Below, one piece after another: positions 11,899 to 14,798 of a DNA stretch of 64,000 bases. Position 1 is the stretch's first letter. Every line of letters starts with the position of its first letter. The stretch comes from Psychrobacter proteolyticus (GTDB lineage Bacteria > Pseudomonadota > Gammaproteobacteria > Pseudomonadales > Moraxellaceae), in NCBI RefSeq assembly GCF_003350005.1, contig NZ_QLKS01000001.1, positions 124,001 through 188,000 on the forward strand, in the 5' to 3' direction. The position numbers and the translations under genes are program-made. The notes under the pieces were generated by a model. The model was not told the DNA's origin. It searched no databases and saw only the letters and a list, made by a program, of their open reading frames with translations.

Positions 11899-12924
11899 TT
11901 AGGCCTGTGACACAAAATTTTGCTGCCGATAAGTAATGCCGCGCTGTTCGTAGACGTGATAAATGGCTGTGAGCAAGTCAGGTATTTTTGGGTGTACGAA
12001 GTCTTTGAGGGTATGCAAATAAATAGGGGAGGTGACATTTTCATGAACCAAACGTTGGTAGCTGATCTGTTCCGTACGTACGGTTTGCAAGCTGGCAGGC
12101 ACCAATGTAATACCTTCGCCTGCCGCGACCAGTCCCAATGCTACCTGCAAATCGCTGACTGTCGTAGTCATAAAAGGTGAGATGCCATACTGCGCAAATA
12201 GATGTAGTAAAGGCTCAGTAATAGGCTCGCTAGGTGCTGCTTCATGAGTAGCAGCACGGTTGATTCTATTTGTAGATAGCTTGTCACTCACTTGGGTCAT
12301 TGCCTCTGTCGTCACCGTGGACGATACTGGCAAATGTGTTTGATGGTATAAAATTAAGCGATTGTTCGCTAGGTCTATCAAGCGCTGCTTACGTACATTG
12401 GCAAGCGGATGTGATTTTGGCAATGCCACCACGTAGCGCTCATGACGTAGCAGGATTTGCTGAATCCATGGGTCTTGATGGGAAAATCGGCCAAAGCCAA
12501 TATCAATCTCACCAGACTTGAGGGCATCCATTTGTTGGTATGAGCTAATGTCTTTTAAATTAACGTCGATATCAGGGCTAGACTGTTTAAGCGTGGCAAT
12601 AATTTCAGGCAGCAGGCCATATAGCACTGAGGGCACAAAACCTATATTTAAAACGCTGCTAGGTGCTGATAGACGCTGGGTCATACTGGTCACCGTATCA
12701 ATCTCGGTCAATATGGTGCTTATTTTATCGTAGAAAAAACTGCCCGCTTCAGTCAGATGTAGTGGTCTGTGGTAGCGATCAATAAGCACCACGCCCATGT
12801 CAGTCTCTAACTGTTTTAGCAAGCGACTCAGGCTCGGCTGTGACAGTCCTGTCTTAGTGGCGGCAGCGCTAAAGCTGCGCAAGTCTGCAATAGCAATGAA
12901 CGCGTTAAGCTGTCTTAAATCCAT
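11899..12924 (-). CDS. LysR-family transcriptional regulator
   Basis: A 341-residue LysR-type regulator: an N-terminal winged helix-turn-helix (MDLRQLNAFIAIADLRSF, then LSQPSLSRLLKQLE) followed by a periplasmic-binding-protein-like effector domain (VLNIGFVPSVLYGLLPEI, GFGRFSHQDPW). It is longer than the usual 300 residues because of an inserted segment around residues 210-235. The family binds a small-molecule effector and normally controls a divergent or neighbouring gene. The nearest same-strand target is the Nramp-like transporter 285 bases downstream; the divergent gene upstream is the membrane protein at 13151. Neither link is proven. Confidence 0.9.
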   Translation of the reverse strand: MDLRQLNAFIAIADLRSFSAAATKTGLSQPSLSRLLKQLETDMGVVLIDRYHRPLHLTEAGSFFYDKISTILTEIDTVTSMTQRLSAPSSVLNIGFVPSVLYGLLPEIIATLKQSSPDIDVNLKDISSYQQMDALKSGEIDIGFGRFSHQDPWIQQILLRHERYVVALPKSHPLANVRKQRLIDLANNRLILYHQTHLPVSSTVTTEAMTQVSDKLSTNRINRAATHEAAPSEPITEPLLHLFAQYGISPFMTTTVSDLQVALGLVAAGEGITLVPASLQTVRTEQISYQRLVHENVTSPIYLHTLKDFVHPKIPDLLTAIYHVYEQRGITYRQQNFVSQA

Positions 12925-13150
12925 ATGAATAAACCTGTTATGGCACGCAGAATATTTTTAATGTTGATTCATTTTATTATTCATACAATTTGCACAAATA
13001 TTAGCACTATCGAATAAATTACGCTTGAAGATAGGGATGTGAGCAACTATATTGGTGGCTAATAAAGTAGTTACACTCTAACGAAATAGTCATAACTGCG
13101 TTTTAGCAGTCATTTAATGCCGGTAGGATAGACCGGCTTGGTATCATTCT

Positions 13151-14086
13151 ATGAGCGACGATAAGAAAGACAGTGGCACTGATTTTGAAAAAGAGTTAGC
13201 CAAAATAGTGAATAAAAAGTCGCACAAACGTTCTAGCAATAATATCTATGAACGTTTTATCGATCGCGTGCACAGTTCTAAAGGTGCTAAGCAGAATAAC
13301 GCAGTAGCTGATCCAATGCTACTGGACAGTACAAATGAAAACGTAGCAGAGCGACTGCCATTTAAAGATGAAAGCAGCGCTCAAGAGCAAACGTTAGAGT
13401 TACTAGAGAACATAACGACAAATGCCACCTTTGATTTTTCAAACCAAAACCCCGCAACAAGAAATGATACATCCAATACAAAAGATGCTACTAGTAAAGA
13501 TGATATCGACAATGTTTTATTTGATAACTATCCAGATGACCAACACTTAGCGGATAGTGACGAAGAAAAATCGTTATCTGCTACTGACCAAGCGACTTAT
13601 ACGCCTAGCATACTTAGAGATAATGATTTTGATACTCAGATTGTATCAACAGAACCGAACGATGAAGAAGTAACAAAAACAAAGACTACGGTGAAAAGCA
13701 GTAAGCAGCCCATCATCCTTGGTATGGTTTTTGGATCATTATTGATCGCTGCGATTGTATTCATGCTTATTTTTACAGGGATTTTATCAACTTCTACGTC
13801 TGATGACGAGAGTAACAACCGCGGTTCAGAGACTAAAATTGCCACAGACAGCTTGCCAGTTGTTAGCGCTGAGCCAATCGCTACCAACGATGACAATCAG
13901 CTAGCTGCTGATACCAATGATAGTGACACACCATTAGAATCAGCAACACAGGATGCCCCAAACAACGGAAAAGGAACGCCAGCAGAAGAGCCTATAGAGC
14001 TTACTTCAGAGACTGAATCAGCCATTACCTATGAGGACTTTAGGCAAGAATCACAGACCACACTGTATCGAGAAGCAAGTGATTAG
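13151..14086 (+). CDS. Single-pass membrane protein with C-terminal DFxxE motif
   Basis: A 311-residue protein I cannot assign to a family. Residues 1-186 are hydrophilic, acidic and low in complexity, starting with a lysine-rich patch (KIVNKKSHKRSS). One strong transmembrane helix spans about residues 187-211 (ILGMVFGSLLIAAIVFML). The following Asp/Thr/Ser-rich stretch probably lies in the periplasm and ends in YEDFRQESQTTLYREAS. The same motif appears twice in the next protein (14248), which has the same topology, so the two look like a duplicated pair. The motif is also the last element of the protein, suggesting a docking peptide. ATG at 13151 has only a weak ribosome site. Confidence 0.75.
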   Translation: MSDDKKDSGTDFEKELAKIVNKKSHKRSSNNIYERFIDRVHSSKGAKQNNAVADPMLLDSTNENVAERLPFKDESSAQEQTLELLENITTNATFDFSNQNPATRNDTSNTKDATSKDDIDNVLFDNYPDDQHLADSDEEKSLSATDQATYTPSILRDNDFDTQIVSTEPNDEEVTKTKTTVKSSKQPIILGMVFGSLLIAAIVFMLIFTGILSTSTSDDESNNRGSETKIATDSLPVVSAEPIATNDDNQLAADTNDSDTPLESATQDAPNNGKGTPAEEPIELTSETESAITYEDFRQESQTTLYREASD

Positions 14087-14247
14087 AATGGTTAGGTTGA
14101 GACTTATTTTAGGCAGTTAGATAACCGTTATCAAACTATTCGAGACGCTCACACCATAATATGTTGCAATACAACAGATAATTCGTATCATTATGTAAAG
14201 TAGACGGTTATGTACCGTTGATGATATGAATTATATGGTACGTAACT

Positions 14248-14700
14248 ATGAATGAATCAGAAAATGTTAATAATAATATTGAGTCAAAAAGTATTAGACC
14301 ACGCAGTCTTATCTTCGCTATCATCAGTGTAATCTTTATTGTCCTAATAACTACTTTCTATATTTCTAACCGTATTTCTTCAACGCTATCTCAAGCGTCG
14401 CCTACTAATAATGGTTTAACAGTGAGCAATATTACTAAAGAGGCTAATGCTAATCAGACTGTACAGCAGCATTTGGATGGTCAAAATCAGCCTAGCAAAC
14501 CTATAGTTACTGATAATCATAAAAATGACACTGTCATTAGCTATCATGATTTTAAACAAGAGGCACAGAGTGTGCTATTCCATGAGGAAGAAAAGATTAT
14601 ACAAGCTAAGTACAGTGCACCTGGTATGACGTCTGCTGTCAGCGCTGAGGACTTTAGAATAGAAGCACATAAAACCTTATATCGTGCATCCAGATATTAG
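14248..14700 (+). CDS. Small membrane protein with two DFxxE motifs
   Basis: A 150-residue protein of unknown function. A short cytoplasmic head is followed by one transmembrane helix at about residues 21-40 (IFAIISVIFIVLITTFYI), then a disordered Asn/Thr-rich linker and two copies of a short motif: SYHDFKQEAQSVLF around Asp101 and SAEDFRIEAHKTLY around Asp135. The consensus (S/T)-x-x-D-F-(R/K)-x-E-(A/S)-(Q/H)-x-(T/V)-L-(Y/F) matches the end of the protein encoded just upstream. The gap of 161 bases and shared direction allow one transcript, which would end at the strong terminator at 14761. Function cannot be inferred beyond a paralogous pair of envelope proteins. Confidence 0.72.
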   Translation: MNESENVNNNIESKSIRPRSLIFAIISVIFIVLITTFYISNRISSTLSQASPTNNGLTVSNITKEANANQTVQQHLDGQNQPSKPIVTDNHKNDTVISYHDFKQEAQSVLFHEEEKIIQAKYSAPGMTSAVSAEDFRIEAHKTLYRASRY

Positions 14701-14760: not shown

Positions 14761-14798
14761 AAGCCCCATTTCTCTAAACATAAGAGAAATGGGGCTTT
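14761..14798. terminator. Bidirectional terminator
   Basis: Perfect 15-base arms (AAGCCCCATTTCTCT and its complement) around a seven-base loop, with CTTTT after the stem on the plus strand. It lies between convergent genes and can end transcripts from both. Confidence 0.9.

Follow-up and report, generated by a model that had tools for sequence, protein, structure and literature searches.

The motif locus

The window, by which we mean the whole 64,000-nucleotide stretch of Psychrobacter proteolyticus DNA that was analysed (contig NZ_QLKS01000001.1, positions 124,001 to 188,000), holds two tandem genes on the + strand, gene 1 and gene 2, whose products share a short peptide with the consensus I(S/T)YxDFRxE(A/S)QxTLYRE (Table 1). 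Both reading frames were recovered at the positions and on the strand reported by the first-pass annotation of this DNA, and the peptide likewise sits where it had been placed: gene 1 has it at Asp296, gene 2 at Asp101 and again at Asp135. The gene 1 copy lies five residues ahead of the C-terminus.

Table 1. Features of the motif locus, with positions counted along the window.
Feature	Position	Strand	Evidence
LysR-type regulator, with an orthologue adjacent to and divergent from the motif gene in 19 of 21 neighbourhoods	11899..12924	-	comparison
Small inverted repeat directly upstream of gene 1, with TTGGTAT following	13119..13137	+	weak covariation
Gene 1: 311 aa, single-pass membrane protein, one C-terminal motif copy	13151..14086	+	open reading frame
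Conserved N-terminal helix of gene 1 (residues 31-42, IYERFIxRV block)	13241..13276	+	majority-residue fraction 0.81; predicted helix 32-41
Gene 1 transmembrane helix, residues 187-209	13709..13777	+	predicted structure, hydropathy
Gene 1 motif copy AITYEDFRQESQTTLYREASD	14021..14083	+	profile; predicted helix 294-304; conservation 0.91
Small inverted repeat upstream of gene 2, with GGTAC between repeat and ATG	14204..14218	+	some covariation
Gene 2: 150 aa, single-pass membrane protein with a short N-terminus and two motif copies	14248..14700	+	open reading frame
Membrane-spanning segment of gene 2 (residues about 21-39, limits by eye)	14308..14364	+	hydropathy, sequence
Gene 2 motif copy 1	14533..14595	+	profile
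Gene 2 motif copy 2	14635..14697	+	profile
Inverted repeat of 15 pairs, terminator-like, after gene 2	14761..14797		scan (gave - strand)

Both motif genes have a small inverted repeat upstream, and GGTAY lies between this repeat and the ATG. For the gene 2 repeat, 92% of cells pair across 13 upstream stretches chosen from 21, with changes on both sides in three of the five pairs, and one of 500 shuffles was as good. For the gene 1 repeat, pairing reached 89% across 15 stretches chosen from 32, and 88 of 500 shuffles were as good. These repeats could be an operator, an RNA hairpin or a translation signal. On reading the spacing, we set aside the idea of a leaderless start behind TGGTAT. An Rfam search returned two matches, both far under the gathering score, and a sigma-70 scan gave nine promoter-like sites as compared to 6.6 expected.

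The shared peptide and its conservation

To separate the peptide from chance resemblance, we relied on a leave-out profile made from the C-terminal ends of gene 1 in 25 other genomes, excluding the window row, and searched it against the 997 window open reading frames of at least 30 amino acids. Both gene 2 copies ranked directly after gene 1 (iE 1.4e-6 and 6.1e-5), whereas the best match beyond the two genes reached an iE of 1. The resemblance noticed by the first-pass annotation is thus not due to chance, as the profile sets the gene 2 copies apart from the other reading frames of the window. Pairwise Smith-Waterman comparison gave less strong support than the profile: the score of 70 for gene 1 against gene 2 was equalled by one of 1000 shuffles, and the score of 33 for the two copy regions of gene 2 by five of 1000. 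In the window's own genome, motif profile A2 (22 rows, window copies included) matched just the three known places at E<=10.

Conservation was mapped over 28 gene 1 rows, namely that of the window itself and those of 27 loci out of the 50 from the species-genome scan described below. The motif had the highest mean majority-residue fraction of all segments (0.91), followed by the IYERFI block (0.81), the membrane helix (0.75) and residues 1-30 (0.66); the inner and outer linkers reached 0.37 and 0.38. Four polar residues, Asp296, Glu300, Gln302 and Arg307, are invariant across 26 gene 1 rows. In most rows a motif copy is found 4-8 residues from the end of the protein. A YEPLSxEEL-like block occurs in 23 of 26 gene 1 rows and is missing from the window gene 1.

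Predicted structure and membrane orientation

The AlphaFold model of gene 1 contains four helices (residues 8-22, 32-41, 187-209 and 294-304) and little else, with a mean pLDDT of 46.6 and 213 of 311 residues below 50. The helix covering the motif is modelled with modest confidence (block means of 74 and 64). As judged from this model, gene 1 outside the motif is predicted to be disordered, the exceptions being the two N-terminal helices and the membrane helix. Each of 26 gene 1 rows had a single predicted membrane segment, and 12 of 13 gene 2 rows had one or more; the thirteenth, which showed no segment and whose start is perhaps placed too late, was dropped from the charge count. In every row counted (26 of 26 for gene 1, 12 of 12 for gene 2), the 15 residues before the segment hold more Lys and Arg than the 15 residues after it. 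Because of this bias, we infer that both proteins adopt an N-in/C-out arrangement presenting the motif on the outer side, in agreement with the external C-terminus proposed in the first-pass annotation; the outer side would be the periplasmic one. The suggestion that the peptide terminates membrane proteins held as well in the rows examined (26 of 26 for gene 1 and 12 of 13 for gene 2).

Relation of gene 2 to gene 1

Gene 2 probably arose from gene 1 by copying in tandem. We base this paralogy on a loosely conserved N-terminal block, on similarity ahead of the motif and on the tandem order of the two genes. In other species gene 2 can be longer, and 8 of 15 rows carry an N-terminal YE.[FY][ILMV] block resembling that of gene 1; 2000 shuffles gave a mean of 0.02 and a maximum of 1, for a pattern picked after viewing the rows. 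With a strict profile of the gene 1 N-terminal block, no gene 2 row among the 15 outscored every one of its 200 shuffles, and four of them gave no report at all. When the gene 1 profile was used without the motif, 3 of 15 gene 2 rows, the window gene 2 not among them, beat all 3000 shuffles, in a test that is generous because shuffling disrupts the membrane helix. After copying, the motif of gene 2 likely doubled and the inner arm likely shrank in the window's clade. The two copies lie 34-35 residues apart in most two-copy rows (33 in L027 and 41 in L047), and at L044 and L052 gene 2 has a single copy.

These comparisons modify the first-pass reading. The dissimilarity of the remaining protein parts stands, by eye, for the window pair, but elsewhere genes 1 and 2 have an N-terminal block in common. 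The proposal that a motif kept amid diverging surroundings serves as a docking site is not refuted, the motif being retained in most of the genus, but the sharing itself partly reflects plain common descent, which had been missed, since the two proteins are probably tandem copies. The weaker form on DUF805 proteins of relatives, described below, had also escaped the first-pass annotation.

Distribution of the peptide

The first-pass annotation had considered that the motif might be lacking in related species. Instead, A2 at E<=0.01 found it in 90 of 105 Psychrobacter genomes, with one match in 42, two in 11, three in 36 and four in a single genome. These counts may miss weak copies, as G015 has gene 2 yet gives a single match, and the carrier protein was read in part of the 90 genomes; in one of them, G323, the match sits on a DUF805 protein. 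Within the family, gene 1 profile A3 matched 97 of 348 genomes, 90 inside the genus and seven outside, the latter weakly (E 3e-4 to 7e-3). When the motif profile was applied to these seven, six genomes of genus g15 gave only partial matches (best E 0.076) and were set aside as presumed chance matches. The remaining one, from genus g7, gave none and proved to carry the DUF805-tail form described below. An A3 pattern scan of 84,980 species genomes, which may omit records of the window's own genome, yielded 129 stretches, of which 53 were confirmed, representing 50 distinct loci; all 50 named loci are titled Psychrobacter. The same kind of scan on viral contigs returned five pattern stretches and no relative, and a viral origin was dropped.

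As scored by A2, 15 of the 105 genus genomes lack the motif. In ten of them (G156, G034, G336, G005, G037, G023, G329, G029, G033 and G059) nothing recognisable adjoins the LysR gene, which argues that the motif is dispensable in part of the genus; the G336 contig stops shortly past LysR, and G059 carries SpoIIM on a separate contig.

Several loci deserve separate mention. Profile matches in two assemblies (G058:C1:2511909-2512853 and G055:C132:386-631) are interrupted by stops. G055 also has an empty LysR locus, and because the LysR protein there is nearly identical to that of G005, the assembly may be mixed or a transfer may have taken place. Three genomes, G081, G176 and G011 (L108, L109 and L107), each carry two different motif genes with differing linkers. 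Among 11 loci devoid of a motif protein (L195-L203, L205 and L206), seven hold a tandem pair of Nramp-like genes, and eight have an extra gene before LysR that is related to L111:9016-9762.

Neighbourhood and history of the locus

We compared the neighbourhood of the window with those of 20 chosen genomes. The exceptions to the divergent pairing of motif gene and LysR-type gene (Table 1) were G011 and G323. Past LysR follow an Nramp-like transporter and then methylcitrate-cycle genes, among them prpB, named by NCBIfam above its cut-off, and genes that we take to be prpC and acnD; the Nramp and LysR types were assigned from below-cut-off matches. In G035 the motif gene opens a same-strand run continuing with DUF805, RDD, SpoIIM, an unnamed gene, a presumably DUF4129-like gene that had no above-cut-off Pfam match, a DUF4350-like gene (below cut-off), a MoxR AAA gene and DUF58. 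These labels were given by similarity to the genes of G011, on which Pfam was run. In G011, motif genes flank such a run at both ends, and the run holds two DUF805 genes. The window neighbourhood has no MoxR, DUF58 or other run genes adjoining the motif genes, and its genome gave no SpoIIM match at 1e-20. At this threshold, SpoIIM was detected in 5 of 60 genomes (G011, G014, G021, G035 and G059), with no match in the other 55. The motif is present in 51 of the 60, including 49 that are devoid of SpoIIM. The simplest reading is that the run was lost in most lineages and the motif kept.

At the same locus, early-branching Psychrobacter genomes and a second genus have DUF805 membrane proteins that terminate in a weaker form of the peptide. 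These proteins adjoin the same LysR or Nramp-like gene as the motif genes do, and in Psychrobacter their genes come first in a run that includes RDD and SpoIIM, as well as MoxR where the stretch extends that far. In G323 the first gene encodes a DUF805 protein ending in ISFEEFKQEAQTTIYRED and adjoins the Nramp-like gene, the stretch stopping before any MoxR. Five of the 15 motif-less genus genomes (G178, G337, G338, G014 and G021) have DUF805 with the weaker tail, RDD and SpoIIM at this locus; MoxR was seen in G178 and G014, and the stretches of G337, G338 and G021 end sooner. The tail of G021, SDDAFIEASEKPILIDRG, is the least similar. In genus g7 (G091, G065 and G100, the last on a short contig that lacks LysR), a DUF805 protein ending in VSYEDFVKASEQQIFIDR lies beside LysR, here 52% identical to its best match, and the run is absent.

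We connect the motif with the DUF805 tails through a tail profile, through G323 as a bridge and through shared position. The tail profile, made from eight hand-trimmed rows with the closest one (G323) omitted, ranked gene 2 first (E 0.0013) and gene 1 second (E 0.0031) among the 997 window reading frames, the next match lying at 5.1. In the reverse direction, the gene 1 profile found the G323 tail at an iE of 4e-8 and those of G337, G338 and g7 weakly, at 0.06 to 0.4; the tails of G178 and G035 came at 4 or worse, and those of G011, G014 and G021 were unlisted. The full A3 profile reached the G338 DUF805 protein at E 4.6e-4. By eye, two DUF805 N-termini, HKKFMQRV of L204:4590-5648 and HQRFLNKF of L111:6093-7169, are slightly like the YERFIxRV of gene 1.

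All seven DUF805 relatives examined have four hydrophobic segments, and by simple count their tail should therefore lie inside, opposite to that of gene 1. The two orientations would agree if the third segment were re-entrant, an arrangement that is only hinted at by the loop charges: loop 2 holds 3-4 Lys/Arg, loop 3 holds 1-4, and the first 25 tail residues hold none in six of the seven proteins. Membrane sidedness is accordingly the weakest point of the docking proposal.

In a tree of 39 LysR proteins, the single-pass motif gene is confined to one 22-row clade with support of 94/96, slightly below the tool's mark. Two sister genomes within this clade, G029 and G033, have no motif gene; outside it lie the rows with a DUF805 tail and the remaining empty ones. 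The locus labels, hand-assigned and for this locus only, require six changes (minimum four), a number that none of 200 shuffles matched. The tree omits G011 and includes G055 through its empty locus, although the motif is present elsewhere in that genome. Its root is unsure because the outgroup branch measures 2.76 and L153 joins by long branches. We envisage that the peptide probably arose on a DUF805 protein at this locus, heading the run of RDD, SpoIIM, MoxR and DUF58, and would then have moved, in what looks like one event within one clade, to a single-pass protein.

Proposed role of the peptide

The feature is real, kept across most of one genus and has a traceable history. It looks like a docking peptide that switched protein scaffold while holding its position in the genome. 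In our best explanation, which we consider to have an even chance of being correct as a whole, genes 1 and 2 encode inner-membrane tethers. Each would be anchored by one membrane helix, with its N-terminus in the cytoplasm, and would carry on the outer side a floppy linker ending in a short amphipathic helix that docks one envelope partner. Gene 1 would present the peptide once and could bridge both sides of the membrane, as it has the conserved cytoplasmic helix IYERFIxRV besides the motif. Gene 2 would present it twice, about 34 residues apart, and in its window form has only a short cytoplasmic arm. Docking is suggested because a conserved helix ends a disordered tether, is doubled in one protein and occurs on two scaffolds; we put docking at about evens. 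Since most of the clade lacks the run yet keeps the peptide, the partner is likely encoded elsewhere. If the run was lost together with SpoIIM, a partner encoded only within the run is excluded by the 49 genomes that keep the motif.

The same terminal helix might instead bind its own copies, such that gene 1, gene 2 and, where present, DUF805 co-assemble through a homotypic clasp. The carriers examined all occupy one locus and are often arranged in tandem, gene 2 holds the peptide twice, and self-association needs no operon product, consistent with SpoIIM missing from most genomes. However, 42 of the 90 motif genomes gave a single match (weak copies may be missed), which leaves only self-pairing of one protein, and the four invariant polar residues exceed the needs of a simple clasp. 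We regard self-association as unlikely.

Rather less probable still is that an envelope protease reads the C-terminal peptide and that the cut frees a signalling cytoplasmic piece, by analogy with anti-sigma-type regulated proteolysis. Although the single-pass N-in/C-out layout, the placement, in most rows, of a motif copy 4-8 residues before the end and the conserved cytoplasmic helix would all suit such a tag, gene 2 has an extra internal copy about 34 residues upstream, the window gene 2 has almost no cytoplasmic arm, and no sigma or anti-sigma family is among the Pfam and NCBIfam matches. That the motif genes are functionless relics of the lost MoxR/DUF58 run, as their persistence in 49 of the 55 SpoIIM-less genomes and the stops inside the matches of G058 and G055 might suggest, is very improbable given that the motif is the most conserved segment, far above the linkers, and that gene 2 arose as an additional copy.

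Returning to the membrane-tethered docking helix, a more far-reaching version is conceivable, and we offer it tentatively, leaning somewhat against it: the roughly 20-residue peptide would be a new envelope recruitment code, borne by two unrelated carriers, that outlived its run, was multiplied in tandem and marks a conserved Psychrobacter machine, with gene 1 linking a cytoplasmic partner via its second helix. To our knowledge, the role of MoxR/DUF58/SpoIIM/RDD clusters is mostly unknown. The conserved peptide should be a simple bait for the candidate envelope partner, and thereby a handle on the role of the MoxR/DUF58 cluster.

Comparison with known systems

The view that the two proteins belong to no described family was upheld within the libraries searched, with nothing above cut-off in Pfam or NCBIfam and nothing below E 0.13 among PDB sequences. 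For gene 1, the best scores were 8.5 bits in Pfam and 17.4 in NCBIfam, each against a cut-off of 40; for gene 2, Pfam gave at best 13.8 against a cut-off of 25.3, and NCBIfam gave no match. Searching PDB sequences with A3 returned five weak matches (E 0.13 to 0.71).

The closest likeness is to DUF805 (PF05656) proteins, whose relatives at this locus have a tail with a related, weaker motif and occupy the same position. They differ in having four membrane segments as compared to one in genes 1 and 2, and neither window protein gave a DUF805 row at E<=10, although the relatives at the locus do match the family. In the portion of the literature that our search reached, we found no publication joining DUF805 with Psychrobacter. 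With the MoxR-DUF58-SpoIIM-RDD-DUF4350 clusters, the connection is one of position, as a motif gene heads the run in G035 and motif genes flank that of G011, whereas the window motif genes adjoin none of these components. Membrane-tethered short linear docking motifs are a general kind rather than a family. The window peptides differ from them in matching no library profile and in that binding of a partner is putative; what they have in common, according to prediction and conservation, is the overall build of an anchor, a disordered tether and a short conserved helix.
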